Shown here: piece by piece, positions 20,023 through 24,037 of the stretch
How positions within the stretch are numbered: position 1 is the stretch's first letter
How the letters are laid out: every line of letters begins with the position of its first letter
Origin: Saccharopolyspora sp. SCSIO 74807
GTDB taxonomy: Bacteria; Actinomycetota; Actinomycetes; Mycobacteriales; Pseudonocardiaceae
NCBI RefSeq assembly: GCF_037023755.1
Contig: NZ_CP146100.1
Location: 3,813,501-3,877,500, forward strand
Direction of reading: 5' to 3'
Length of the DNA: 64,000 nucleotides
Translations under genes and position numbers: made by a program
The notes under the pieces: generated by a model
The model's database searches: none
The model's input: only the letters and a program-made list of their open reading frames with translations
Told to the model about the DNA's origin: nothing

Positions 20023-20697
20023 ATGCGAGGCAGGCAATTGTCCGGAGGCGGCCGCGCGGTGCGGATCGCTCCCGACCGCCTGGCGGGCTGGTTCGAGCGG
20101 TTCGCCGACGGGCACGGTGGCGCGCTGCGCACCGTTCTCGGCCCGCGCCGCGTCGAAGTGGCCGCCGCCGACGGCGCCACGGCCGCGGTGACCGTCCCGT
20201 TCGGCGAGCTGGCCGGACCGCACGGCGAGCAATCCGGCCTGGCGGTGTCAGCGCTGGTCGAGCACGTGTCGCGGACGCGCCGGGTCGGGCTGGTGCTGGT
20301 GCGCCTGGGCGCGCACAGCGTGGGCATCGCCCGTGGCGGCGTGATCGAGGTTTCCTCGACCGATCGGCACCTGGTGCACGGCCGGAACAAGGCGGGCGGG
20401 CAGTCGCAGCAACGATTCGCGCGCCGCCGCGAGGGCCAGGCGCGCCGTTCCCTGGAGTCCGCCGCCGACGACGCCGCACGGGTGCTGCTGCCGGAACGCG
20501 AGCGGCTCGACGCCGTGATCCTCGGCGGGGACGGCAAGGCGTTGGACGCGCTGCGCGCGGATCCGCGGCTGCGCGAGCTGCTCGCCGCGGCCGAACCCGG
20601 CGTGCTCGACGTCGCCGAGCCGCGCCGTTCGGTGCTCGACGATGCGGCGGTCCGCGCGATCTCGGTGGAGGTCGAGATCCACGATCCGGCTCCCTGA
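20023..20697 (+). CDS. acVLRF1-type peptidyl-tRNA hydrolase / release factor (Vms1-like)
   Basis: 224 residues. The N-terminal beta-rich part is followed by a GRNKAGGQSQQRFARR block (residues 120-135), the hallmark of actinobacterial Vms1/ANKZF1-like release factors. The Gly-Gly-x-x-Gln-type loop is thought to place a water or glutamine at the peptidyl-tRNA ester. Family members free nascent chains from stalled large ribosomal subunits. The gene precedes a leader-ORF-controlled ABC-F ATPase on the same strand, which suggests a shared translation-rescue role. ATG at 20023 was chosen; the first 12 residues are poorly conserved-looking. Confidence 0.85.
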   Translation: MRGRQLSGGGRAVRIAPDRLAGWFERFADGHGGALRTVLGPRRVEVAAADGATAAVTVPFGELAGPHGEQSGLAVSALVEHVSRTRRVGLVLVRLGAHSVGIARGGVIEVSSTDRHLVHGRNKAGGQSQQRFARRREGQARRSLESAADDAARVLLPERERLDAVILGGDGKALDALRADPRLRELLAAAEPGVLDVAEPRRSVLDDAAVRAISVEVEIHDPAP

Positions 20698-20758
20698 TCT
20701 ACCCCGCGGCCCTGGCCTGCCGGGCCCGCCCGGTGACGCTCAGTGCCGGAGTGCACGC

Positions 20759-20785
20759 CTGACCCGGTAGTCCGGCCGTTACACT
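20759..20785 (+). promoter_or_regulatory. Candidate promoter of the ABC-F leader transcript
   Basis: TACACT at 20780-20785 is a good -10; CTGACC at 20759-20764 is a possible -35 with a short 15-bp spacer. The -10 would start transcription around 20792-20793, exactly at the GTG of the leader ORF, which implies a leaderless transcript. Confidence 0.5.
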
Positions 20786-20792
20786 GGTCGAC

Positions 20793-20879
20793 GTGGTGAG
20801 CAAGCACGCGATCCCGCGGCACGCCGTGCGACGGCGATCCCACCCGCGGGAGTACTGCCTGATGGTGTCCGCCGACTAG
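20793..20879 (+). CDS. Leader peptide (28 codons) upstream of the ABC-F gene
   Basis: Too short for standard calling. Open frame GTG GTG AGC ... TAG gives a 28-residue basic peptide beginning VVSKHAIPRHAVRRR and ending CLMVSAD. GTG at 20796 would give 27 residues. The coding region folds on itself: CCCGCGG (20813-20819) pairs with CCGCGGG (20844-20850), and GCCGT/ACGGC (20823-20835) forms a hairpin inside. The stop codon is 15 bp before an intrinsic terminator, and the ABC-F gene follows. This is the layout of ribosome-mediated attenuation: stalling in the leader would change folding and let transcription continue. Protein production is an inference. Confidence 0.6.
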   Translation: MVSKHAIPRHAVRRRSHPREYCLMVSAD

Positions 20880-20893
20880 CGGCGCCCCTTCCA

Positions 20894-20929
20894 GCCCATC
20901 GGCCCGGTCGTACCGGCGATGGGCGTTTT
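20894..20929 (+). terminator. Intrinsic terminator/attenuator before the ABC-F gene
   Basis: GCCCATCG (20894-20901) pairs with CGATGGGC (20917-20924); the stem continues with CCGG/CCGG after a 2-nt bulge and a TCGTA loop. It is followed by GTTTTCG, a short U-run (20926-20929). The hairpin ends about 38 bp before the ABC-F start, so it would stop most readthrough unless the upstream leader refolds. Confidence 0.75.
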
Positions 20930-20966
20930 CGCGATCTCGCTCGACCACTAGCCTCCGGAGTTTTCG

Positions 20967-22595
20967 TTGATCTCTGCCACTTCCCTGGAACTGCGCGCTG
21001 GTTCGCGCATCCTGCTGTCCGGTGCGAACCTGCGCGTCCAGCCCGGCGACCGCATCGGCCTGGTCGGTCGCAACGGTGCGGGCAAGACCACGACGCTGCG
21101 CGTGCTCGCGGGCGAGGGCGATCCCTACGCCGGTGAGCTGGTGCGCAGCGGCGAAACGGGTTACCTGCCGCAGGACCCGCGGGAAGGCGACCTCTCGGTC
21201 GCGGCCAAGGACCGGGTGCTCTCCGCGCGCGGCCTGGACCGGATCCTGCGCGACATGGAGAAGGCGCAGACCGCGATGGCCGAGCTCGCCGACGACCGGC
21301 AGCGGGACAAGGCCATCGACCGCTACGGCAAGCTCGAGGAGCGCTTCGCCGCGCGCGGCGGGTACGGCGCCGAGAGCGAAGCGGGCCGGATCTGCTCGAA
21401 CCTGGGGCTGCCGGACCGGGTGCTGACCCAGCCGCTGAGCACGCTCTCCGGTGGCCAGCGCCGCCGGGTCGAGCTGGCCCGGATCCTGTTCGCCGCCGCG
21501 GAGGCGGGCCCCGGTGGCGGTTCGGCGACGACGCTGCTGCTGGACGAGCCGACCAACCACCTCGACGCGGACTCGATCAACTGGCTGCGCGAGTTCCTCC
21601 GCAACCACGACGGCGGCCTCGTCGTGATCAGCCACGACGTCGAGCTGCTCGGCGACGTGGTGAACAAGGTGTGGTTCCTGGACGCGGTCCGCGGCGAGGC
21701 CGACGTCTACAACATGGACTGGAAGCGCTATCAGGAAGCGCGCGCCGCCGACGAGAAGCGCCGCCGCCGGGAACGCGCCAACGCCGAGAAGAAGGCGTCC
21801 ACGCTCATGGCGCAGGCCGACAAGATGCGCGCCAAGGCCACCAAGGCCGTCGCCGCGCAGAACATGGCCCGCCGCGCCGAGAAGATGGTCAACGACCTGG
21901 AAGAGGAACAGGCCGACGACAAGGTCGCCAAGATCCGCTTCCCGGAACCGGCCTCCTGCGGCAAGACGCCGCTGACCGCCCGCGGGCTGTCGAAGTCCTA
22001 CGGCTCGCTGGAGATCTTCACCGGCGTCGATCTCGCCGTCGACCGCGGCTCCCGGGTCGTGGTGCTCGGGCTCAACGGCGCGGGCAAGACCACGTTGCTG
22101 CGGCTGCTCGGCCACATGGAGGAGTCCGACGCCGGCGAGATGGTGCCCGGCCACGGGCTGCGCGTCGGCTACTACGCGCAGGAGCACGAAACCCTCGACC
22201 ACGACGCGACCGTGTGGGAGAACATCCGCAGCGCGGCCCCGGACACCCCGGAGCAGCAGCTGCGCACGCTGCTCGGCGCGTTCCTGTTCCGCGGTGAACA
22301 GCTCCAGCAGCCCGCGGGCACGCTCTCCGGCGGGGAGAAGACCCGGCTGGCGCTGGCCGGGCTCGTCTCCAGCGCGGCGAACGTGCTGCTGCTCGACGAG
22401 CCGACGAACAACCTGGACCCGGCCAGTCGCGAGCAGGTGCTCGACGCGTTGCGCAGTTTCACCGGAGCGGTGGTCCTGGTGACGCACGATCCCGGCGCGG
22501 TCGAAGCGCTCGAGCCGGAACGGGTGATCCTGTTGCCCGACGGGACTGAGGACCACTGGTCCGAGGACTACATGGAGCTAGTGCAACTCGCCTGA
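20967..22595 (+). CDS. ABC-F family ribosome-associated ATPase
   Basis: 542 residues with two nucleotide-binding domains and no membrane segments. Domain 1: Walker A GRNGAGKTTTLR, signature LSGGQRRRVELARIL, Walker B LLLDEPTNHLDAD. A charged interdomain linker (about 250-310, Lys/Arg/Glu-rich) follows. Domain 2: GLNGAGKTTLLRLLG, LSGGEKTRLALAGL, LLLDEPTNNLDP. ABC-F proteins bind the ribosomal E site and relieve stalling or drug block. TTG at 20967 has CCGGAG six bases upstream. The set ABC-F, small HTH, enoyl-CoA hydratase resembles M. tuberculosis Rv1473, Rv1473A and echA12. Regulation by the upstream leader and terminator is likely. Confidence 0.93.
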   Translation: MISATSLELRAGSRILLSGANLRVQPGDRIGLVGRNGAGKTTTLRVLAGEGDPYAGELVRSGETGYLPQDPREGDLSVAAKDRVLSARGLDRILRDMEKAQTAMAELADDRQRDKAIDRYGKLEERFAARGGYGAESEAGRICSNLGLPDRVLTQPLSTLSGGQRRRVELARILFAAAEAGPGGGSATTLLLDEPTNHLDADSINWLREFLRNHDGGLVVISHDVELLGDVVNKVWFLDAVRGEADVYNMDWKRYQEARAADEKRRRRERANAEKKASTLMAQADKMRAKATKAVAAQNMARRAEKMVNDLEEEQADDKVAKIRFPEPASCGKTPLTARGLSKSYGSLEIFTGVDLAVDRGSRVVVLGLNGAGKTTLLRLLGHMEESDAGEMVPGHGLRVGYYAQEHETLDHDATVWENIRSAAPDTPEQQLRTLLGAFLFRGEQLQQPAGTLSGGEKTRLALAGLVSSAANVLLLDEPTNNLDPASREQVLDALRSFTGAVVLVTHDPGAVEALEPERVILLPDGTEDHWSEDYMELVQLA

Positions 22596-22924: not shown

Positions 22925-23134
22925 GTGGCTGACCTGAAGAAGGGTGCGCGAATCACCGGAAGCGCACGGGACAAGCTTGCCAGTGACCTTAAGAAGAAGT
23001 ACGAGAAGGGAGCCAGCATCCGCGCCCTGGCTGAGGCGACCGGCCGGTCCTACGGGTTCGTGCACCGGGTGCTCAGCGAATCGGGCGTGCAACTGCGCGG
23101 CCGCGGGGGTGCGACGCGTTCGAAGAAGAAGTGA
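22925..23134 (+). CDS. Small helix-turn-helix protein (Rv1473A-like)
   Basis: 69 residues, very basic. KYEKGASIRALAEATGRSYGFVHRVLSE is a clear helix-turn-helix; the ends are Lys/Arg-rich (ADLKKGARITG at the start, RGRGGATRSKKK at the end). Such small proteins are widespread in actinobacteria and probably bind DNA, but their targets are unknown to me. GTG at 22925 was chosen because GGAGGGAAGGCGGGG lies just upstream; the open frame continues further 5' without any sign of conservation. Its place after ABC-F mirrors the M. tuberculosis order. Confidence 0.82.
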   Translation: MADLKKGARITGSARDKLASDLKKKYEKGASIRALAEATGRSYGFVHRVLSESGVQLRGRGGATRSKKK

Positions 23135-23215: not shown

Positions 23216-24037
23216 ATGGAGGCCCGTTTGCAGCAGTCGAGGATGGACGCCGACCTCCTGGACCGTGGCGGTGTGGGGCTCACGGTTCAGGGGCGGCGCG
23301 CCACCATCACGCTCGACCGCCCGGACAAGCTCAATGCGCAGACTCCGTTGACGTGGGCGGCGCTGCGCGAGATCGGCCAGTCCCTCGACCCGGGAGTGCG
23401 GGTCGTCGTGGTGCGCGCGCGGGGGCGCGCGTTCTCCGCCGGGCTGGACCGCAGGTTGTTCGGGTCCGAGGACGTGGACGGGGCGCCCGGCCTGATCGGA
23501 CTGGGGCAGCGCCCCACCGAAGAGGCCGACGCCGAGATCGCCGGGTTCCAGCAGGGCTTCAGCTGGCTGCGGGAACCCGACCGGGTGACGATCGCGGCCG
23601 TGCAAGGCCACGCCATCGGCGCCGGGTTCCAGCTCGCGCTGGCCTGCGACCTGCGGGTGCTCACCGAGGACGCGCGGTTGCGGATGGCCGAGACCGGGTT
23701 GGGCCTGGTGCCGGATCTGGGTGGGACGTTGCCGCTGGTGCGCGCGATCGGTTACGCCCGCGCGGTCGAGATCTGTGCGGCCGGCCGGGAGGTTGGTGCC
23801 GAGGAAGCCCTGCGGATGGGCTTGGCGAACTCGGTGGTGCCCGTCGAAGGGCTGGACGCCGCGGTCGATCAGCTCGCCGAGGCGGTCAGCACCCCGCCGG
23901 AAGGCGCGGTGCGCGAGACGCTGGCCTTGCTGGCGCAGGCCGACGAGGCGGTGGACCCGGAGCAGCAGCTCGCCGCGGAGCGGGCGGCGCAGATCCGGCG
24001 GATCACGGAGCTGGCAGGCGCGCTCGAAGCGAACTGA
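23216..24037 (+). CDS. Enoyl-CoA hydratase/isomerase family protein
   Basis: 273 residues of the crotonase fold. Oxyanion-hole segments are RAFSAGLDRRLFG and HAIGAGFQLALACDLR; the catalytic region reads ETGLGLVPDLGGTLPL, with Asp in the PDLGGT position as in some isomerases. The reaction (hydration or double-bond shift of an acyl-CoA) cannot be fixed from motifs. By synteny it corresponds to EchA12-type proteins. ATG at 23216 follows a GGTTCC-rich leader without a strong ribosome site; an internal ATG at 23243 is a possible alternative start. A strong hairpin follows the stop. Confidence 0.85.
   Translation: MEARLQQSRMDADLLDRGGVGLTVQGRRATITLDRPDKLNAQTPLTWAALREIGQSLDPGVRVVVVRARGRAFSAGLDRRLFGSEDVDGAPGLIGLGQRPTEEADAEIAGFQQGFSWLREPDRVTIAAVQGHAIGAGFQLALACDLRVLTEDARLRMAETGLGLVPDLGGTLPLVRAIGYARAVEICAAGREVGAEEALRMGLANSVVPVEGLDAAVDQLAEAVSTPPEGAVRETLALLAQADEAVDPEQQLAAERAAQIRRITELAGALEAN

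Follow-up and report, generated by a model that had tools for sequence, protein, structure and literature searches.

The window analysed here, a 64,000-nucleotide stretch from Saccharopolyspora sp. SCSIO 74807, carries on its forward strand, which also holds the leader features described below, an ORF (20967-22595, TTG start at 20967) for an ATPase of 542 aa. The product is an ABC-F protein: among solved structures YheS (5e-78) and PoxtA (2e-71) came out on top, and NF000355 (ribosomal protection-like ABC-F), at 357.4 bits, was the best NCBIfam match although it lies under the cut-off of 380. Matches at E <= 1e-150 were found in 99 of 100 relatives, with per-genome best identities of 67-92%; the named record of top identity was from Saccharopolyspora rosea (88% over the protein, the window's own genome possibly having been left out). 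The gene is presumably the orthologue of Rv1473, and it is because of this presumed orthology that we file its product as a resistance protein. A gene for an acVLRF1-family peptidyl-tRNA hydrolase lies directly upstream (20023-20697). This rescue factor often adjoins the ABC-F gene in the window's family: a match was present in the upstream flank at 5/5 genus loci and 43/72 other scan-positive family loci, and at 0/29 in the Streptomycetaceae set defined below. Downstream lie a gene for a small HTH_58 protein (22925-23134) and an enoyl-CoA hydratase-like gene at 23216, an order that is presumably also found around Rv1473.

The leader of the ABC-F gene extends from 20780 to 20966. It begins with a -10 box, TACACT (20780-20785), read from the sequence, which predicts that the transcript begins at 20793 or an adjacent nucleotide. 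An upstream ORF (uORF, 20793-20879) opens with GTG (20793-20795), which lies 7 nt downstream of the -10 box, and runs for 28 codons to a TAG stop at 20877-20879; its translation is VVSKHAIPRHAVRRRSHPREYCLMVSAD. A hairpin that we call P2 follows at 20894-20924, made of GCCCATCG (20894-20901), GC, CCGGT, CGT, ACCGG and CGATGGGC (20917-20924) in this order, i.e. 13 bp with a 2-nt bulge, and then a G and a short tract of four T's (20926-20929). The ABC-F Shine-Dalgarno (SD) sequence GGAG lies at 20957-20960. Two further segments form a computed helix, P1: its 5′ strand GTGGTGAGC (20793-20801) is made of uORF codons 1-3, and its 3′ strand GCTCGACCAC (20939-20948), in which a single G is bulged, stops 18 nt short of the ABC-F start. 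The initial annotation had described a -10 box at 20780, a 28-codon ORF to 20879, a hairpin with T's and the TTG start, and each of them reads as claimed. This anatomy is right, and the leader is a real, conserved and regulatory-looking feature.

Streptomyces transcripts start 7-8 bp after the -10 box (PMC7157823), and from the spacing in the window we infer a transcript that starts at the start codon of a translated uORF, as is characteristic of a leaderless mRNA. A strict sigma-70 and terminator scan of 20600-21100 returned no promoter-like and no terminator-like site and reported no -35 box; thus neither signal is strong. The fold of 20793-20940 was unremarkable (z -0.47), and Rfam gave no match in the window at gathering scores and none up to E = 1 in 20700-21000.

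Conservation of the leaderless uORF

To follow the uORF in relatives, the 210 nt before ABC-F were scanned for short ORFs whose start codon lies 5-9 nt downstream of a TANNNT box. A leaderless uORF was present in 78 of 102 upstream regions, against a mean of 4.5 and a maximum of 8 in 20 dinucleotide-shuffled sets and 1/102 in reverse complements. The positive regions comprised 55/60 loci of the window's family, 20/39 loci from the order's remaining families and 3/3 paralogues; in a named-contig set, 64 of the 78 regions of at least 210 nt were positive. A scan of the whole window on both strands matched at 10 of 11,582 pseudo-starts, every one served by the -10 box at 20780, and a coarser sampling of pseudo-starts gave 0/906. 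A comparison of leader ORFs upstream of orthologous ABC-F genes had been suggested by the initial annotation, for which loss of the ORF in close relatives would have spoken against its reading; the uORF is kept in 5/5 species of the genus and in a second strain. A degenerate pattern for the end of the leader peptide matched its own genome at one site, the window leader, and the uORF stretch TGYYTNATG was absent from the upstream regions of other species that were examined.

The uORF usually has 3-8 codons in relatives and 26-28 in the window's genus. Outside the genus, 51 of 67 distinct family leaders encode 5 or 6 residues (e.g. MVVRLE, MVVLLD, MVRTE). The Streptomycetaceae set consists of 30 leaders (loci within L132-L182) with a uORF peptide beginning MA, 29 of them from Streptomyces, Kitasatospora or Actinacidiphila and one from an Actinomycetales MAG (L142); here 26/29 uORFs have 7 codons, while the other groups (34 leaders) have 3-7. 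Genus uORFs have in common an N-terminal MVSK and a C-terminal VSAD. Between two of them (L003 and L005) we found dN 0.056 and dS 0.336, and third codon positions account for 7 of the 9 differences. On few sites, this is the pattern expected of a coding sequence. Part of the N-terminal conservation may nevertheless act at the RNA level, since these codons are a strand of P1.

The uORF peptide is not a conserved stalling sequence, given the 5 or 6 residues in most family leaders outside the genus. A penultimate Ala, Ser or Thr would suit phenicols and oxazolidinones, Ala being a known context for arrest by both, and Ala-Asp ends all 6 genus uORFs. As a general rule, stalling through the penultimate residue was rejected: Leu is the commonest residue there in the rest of the family (30/67). 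The C-terminal residue is Asp or Glu in 56 of these 67 leaders. Codon 2 encodes Ala in 29/29 named Streptomycetaceae loci between L132 and L182, and its middle base is unpaired in the folds, which hints at a constraint on the peptide in that group.

The uORF could also be a by-product of a transcript start at the GTG, control being exerted at the promoter in the manner of WhiB7/WblC. An AA[A/T] element about 16-26 nt upstream of the -10 box is present in 66/72 other family members, and GAAAWY-N3-TKGM, the WblC promoter motif (PMC7157823), in 11/72; moreover, a title cited by PMC9159947 terms Rv1473 WhiB7-regulated. Both elements are found in 0/6 genus sequences, however, and where present the upstream box, although it resembles the WblC box, sits 8 bp from the -10 box, one helical turn too close for a -35 element that lies 16-19 bp away in WblC promoters (PMC7157823). 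The window leader thus does not appear to carry a promoter of the WblC/WhiB7 regulon. Promoter control would explain neither the coding pattern nor the helices described below, and we regard it as very improbable. A promoter consensus of about GAAAACCGGTGGAC-N8-CGTACACT was otherwise noted upstream of the uORF in L007-L058, L060, L063 and L104-L127. We favour a role for the uORF itself, as part of an attenuator.

Hairpin P2 and the terminator

The initial annotation had read P2 as an intrinsic terminator and the leader as a transcription attenuator: P2 and its T-tract would end transcription unless a ribosome stalled on the uORF, though no obvious antiterminator pairing was noted there. As a candidate antiterminator, drawn by eye in the present analysis, CTGATGG (20859-20865) could pair with CCATCGG (20896-20902). 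Transcription attenuation is the mode of control described for Streptomyces lmrC and are5sc in the passages cited below, and a 13-bp hairpin with four T's is in keeping with it.

The fold of 20880-20936 reached -24.5 kcal/mol with a z-score of only -1.25, and 25 of 200 shuffles were as good. Covariation was examined in 15 of 52 family leaders, hand-chosen for one regular architecture, so that the result describes this subset: 94.1% of cells pair, 7/9 pairs show double changes and 0/500 shuffles reach any of five measures. RNAalifold on a free alignment of the 52 family leaders returned an energy of 0 and no structure because uORF and spacer lengths vary, and swap tests were for this reason used for P1. 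The T-tract is found in 4/5 genus species (missing in L005), in 5/72 other family leaders, in 7/10 leaders of MLRCEG type (Micromonosporaceae and similar), in 2/30 of the Streptomycetaceae set and in 0/3 paralogues; L185, a second strain of the window's species, was counted under ‘other’ in this tally. On these comparisons, the P2 hairpin appears to be conserved and the T-tract is not.

We then placed a ribosome at different uORF positions in equilibrium computations, which ignore kinetics. In the window, the terminator hairpin kept a probability of 0.96-0.97 at every position tried. In three sister species (L003, L004 and L006) a ribosome at codons 7-9 or 12 lowered its probability from about 0.7 to values of 0.02-0.5, so that control by termination is conceivable there, and in L005 it varied between 0.45 and 1.00. 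Of the earlier proposal, the leaderless uORF before ABC-F thus stands, being conserved and showing a coding pattern, but the terminator as the switch is poorly supported: it was unmoved by ribosome position in the window, the T-tract is rare outside the genus, MLRCEG-type leaders apart, and the strict scan was empty. Transcription attenuation as the main mode of control is in our opinion unlikely. An attenuator that acts on translation of ABC-F accords better with P1, the 3′ strand of which lies downstream of the terminator and therefore points to translation.

Pairing of the uORF 5′ end with the ABC-F start region

In the window, P1 strands paired with a mean probability of 1.00, and CTCGACCAC of the 3′ strand was found in 5/5 genus species. 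Both strands are invariant within the genus, so no covariation of P1 is to be seen there. We searched the last 60 nt before ABC-F in 72 distinct family leaders (genus included) for the complement of the leader's own 5′ end, and compared the result with 5,000 trials in which 5′ ends were exchanged among species; leaders were treated without correction for relatedness in this and the other P1 tests. For the first 5 nt, a perfect complement was present in 40/72 leaders, against a mean of 23.7 and a maximum of 34 after swapping. For 6 nt the count was 18 against 13.2 (p 0.04) and for 7 nt 9 against 5.7 (p 0.07). The contrast was weaker when G-U pairs were allowed, the three tallies being 67/72 (mean 59.9, max 66), 48 (38.8, max 50) and 23 (16.0, max 28).

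Individual hexamers behaved differently. GATCAC, the complement of GTGATC, was present in 2/7 own leaders and 1/65 others; CTCCAC (for GTGGAG) in 1/1 and 2/71; and CCCCAT (for ATGGGG) in 1/2 and 0/70. GACCAC (for GTGGTC; 13/30 own, 15/42 others) and GTCCAC (for GTGGAC; 1/5 own, 7/67 others) were not enriched in their own leaders, hence not every hexamer pair is specific. Computed pairing of the first 8 nt with positions -45 to -13 averaged 0.39 against 0.23 for shuffled letters (37/72 leaders above control, p 0.004), with a P1 probability above 0.5 in 30/72 family leaders only. Separately, TG[T/C]CC occurs in the last 60 nt before ABC-F in 75 of 136 distinct leaders, the mean of 200 base shuffles being 34.1 and their maximum 46.

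The design is clearest in Streptomycetaceae, where the four folded leaders (L148, L158, L167 and L174) form one long hairpin with the uORF as 5′ strand: CCGU at the GTG of ABC-F is bound by AUGG, and GGAG of the SD by CUCC of the uORF. The uORF itself is here the anti-SD strand. Alignment of 17 Streptomycetaceae leaders of similar length showed 93.0% of cells pairing and a covariation of 0.192 against 0.127 (0/500 shuffles), with 5 double-change pairs against 2.0 (7/500 shuffles). Column 6 with column 91, for instance, is A-U in 10 leaders, C-G in 5 and U-A in 1; in the same alignment no double change was seen in the columns of the Streptomyces SD helix. Nine of the 10 Streptomycetaceae ABC-F genes with an ATG start, in leaders down to 41 nt, have the complement of the first 6-8 nt of the uORF (e.g. 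CAGCCAT) over the start, the exception being L159. Three Kitasatospora leaders of 41 nt (L133, L140 and L141) illustrate this, their uORF and ABC-F start contexts being reverse complements, AUGGCUG and CAGCCAU. The recurrent element is a helix that connects the uORF with the ribosome-binding site of ABC-F or with the sequence a little ahead of it.

These compact leaders also bear on a further explanation, in which the uORF mainly delivers ribosomes, ABC-F being translated by reinitiation or translational coupling and P1 being incidental or limiting uORF loading. In three further species (L015, L024 and L106) the stop of a leaderless uORF overlaps the ABC-F start codon, a possible case of coupling, and the uORF stop lies just 14 nt before the start in the three Kitasatospora leaders. 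In the window, on the other hand, 87 nt with a strong hairpin part the uORF stop from the ABC-F start, and ABC-F has its own SD. Since this explanation also leaves the covarying helices without a reason, we consider it rather improbable.

Regarding the helix as a lock, we blocked the first 18 nt of the leader to imitate a ribosome at the uORF start and calculated how readily the ABC-F binding site opens, taking this site to run from 16 nt before the gene to 6 nt inside it and using shuffled uORF letters as control. Masking opened the site in the Streptomycetaceae set (21 distinct leaders, stop-to-start 41-109 nt) by 4.76 against 1.34 kcal/mol (20/21 above control, p 5e-6), and in 15 leaders of other families by 3.69 against 0.68 (14/15, p 1e-4). 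The order's other families supplied 20 scan-positive loci, of which three (L077, L080 and L083) went to the MLRCEG group and two (L087 and L091) were left out, giving these 15; masking did not extend to the positives from still other families among the named contigs, for example L129, L145, L160 and L183. MLRCEG-type leaders responded weakly (0.52 against -0.30; 8/10, p 0.03). A second ABC-F paralogue of 58-62% identity (L101, L102 and L103) has its own 7-codon leaderless uORF (M-x-x-x-R-I-S/Y), the codons of which pair with the SD region; masking freed about 10.8 kcal/mol against 2.9 in controls (3/3). Outside the window's family, these computations thus support a lock that acts directly on the SD region.

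Inside the family, by contrast, masking did not open this site (0.77 against 0.49; 28/67 above control, p 0.88), and in the genus it was slightly closed (-2.23 against -0.65; 0/3). Widening the site to 22 nt upstream gave 5.0 against 1.4 in the genus (4/4) and 5.8 against 0.6 in the window, and in the rest of the family 45/67 leaders were above control (p 2.7e-5), or 47/67 at 26 nt; these definitions were picked after P1 had been seen, and the values largely restate P1. The effect of masking in the window's family therefore depends on the room that an initiating ribosome needs.

A model for the leader and its relation to known systems

We propose that 20780-20966 is a 5′ leader in which the leaderless uORF attenuates ABC-F by means of P1 and a ribosome on the uORF brings relief, and we give this reading a probability of about 0.55. 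Translation would most likely be the main target of such an attenuator, and in the genus termination may contribute as well. The message would start at the uORF GTG, and a 70S ribosome would load directly on its 5′ end. With the 5′ end free, the computed partner of the first nine nt is 20939-20948, a segment shortly before the ABC-F SD, and P1, with P2 enclosed, would hinder ribosome entry at the ABC-F start. A ribosome held on the uORF, as by drugs of the peptidyl-transferase centre acting at the first codons, would prevent P1 and allow ABC-F to be translated; drug sensing and the direction of control in the genus are what we infer here. In other actinomycetes, Streptomycetaceae and several other families, computation supports pairing of the uORF over the ABC-F SD/start region itself, whereas in the window's family the helix would lie mostly just upstream of it. 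In the genus the uORF would have grown to its present length, and the T-tract of P2 may add some premature termination.

More generally, one ABC-F lineage of actinomycetes may use a leaderless mini-ORF as both sensor and lock, with its coding strand serving as the strand that pairs against the ribosome-binding site. It would detect, whatever the peptide, that a ribosome is kept at the 5′ end on the first codons, and the helix would have slid from the SD and start codon, which it covers in Streptomycetaceae, to a place a little upstream in most members of the window's family. For this generalization we would put the chances a little short of even. If true, a uORF would require no ribosome-binding site of its own and no stalling peptide in order to attenuate, the 5′ end itself being the sensor. 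An SD-scoring uORF finder such as uORF4u might then rank leaderless uORFs low. Conservation of the leaderless uORF across several families also makes a specific and cheap test possible.

Attenuation of transcription and translation dependent on uORFs, with start-codon arrest on tiny uORFs, is reported for ABC-F genes in passages of PMC12421871, PMC10201436 and PMC8546547, and the literature covered also included PMC13236596 and PMC10219788; section 7 of PMC12421871 describes drug-induced arrest on the start codon of such uORFs upstream of ABC-F genes. The regulatory reading of the window uORF is supported by this, as ribosome-sensing uORFs are, in these passages, an established device before ABC-F genes. 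We found no account of a leaderless uORF controlling the present ABC-F lineage in searches of the open-licence PMC literature, which leaves out most subscription papers and all preprints.

OcrA/Rv1473 and MAB_2736c are probably of the same lineage as the window gene. They are linked to linezolid and chloramphenicol tolerance in passages of PMC9159947 and PMC13041422, which describe no uORF for these mycobacterial genes; proteins of the Rv1473/OcrA type are reported there to blunt both drugs. The whiB7/wblC uORF is likewise an actinobacterial uORF that reports ribosome inhibition and controls resistance, but it controls a transcription factor and is described as transcription attenuation (passages of PMC12421871 and PMC13236596). 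In mycobacteria, leaderless polycysteine uORFs serve as attenuators (Canestrari 2020, as cited in PMC13236596) and resemble the window leader in being leaderless short ORFs that act in cis on the gene downstream; there, however, cysteine is sensed through Cys codons and the genes are metabolic.

Among actinobacterial ABC-F genes with uORFs, Streptomyces are5sc, tiaA and lmrC are close to the window system, with start-codon arrest by lincosamides, streptogramin A and pleuromutilins and, for are5sc and tiaA, the uORFs MLV, MRS and MVGDDDISG (passages of PMC12421871 and PMC8546547). Unlike the window leader, they are described there with longer leaders (194 and 232 bp), uORFs with ribosome-binding sites and terminator/antiterminator models. 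They are placed in the ARE5 subfamily. Finally, cplR of Clostridioides difficile and vmlR, vmlR2 and lsaA share with the present system a very short uORF before a resistance ABC-F gene, and are described in passages of PMC10201436 as combining SD-masking translation attenuation with transcription attenuation. The window leader differs from this group in its leaderless uORF, uORF4u, the tool of that paper, looking for an SD upstream of the uORF, and in the window's family the strand of the helix is the uORF's own 5′ end.
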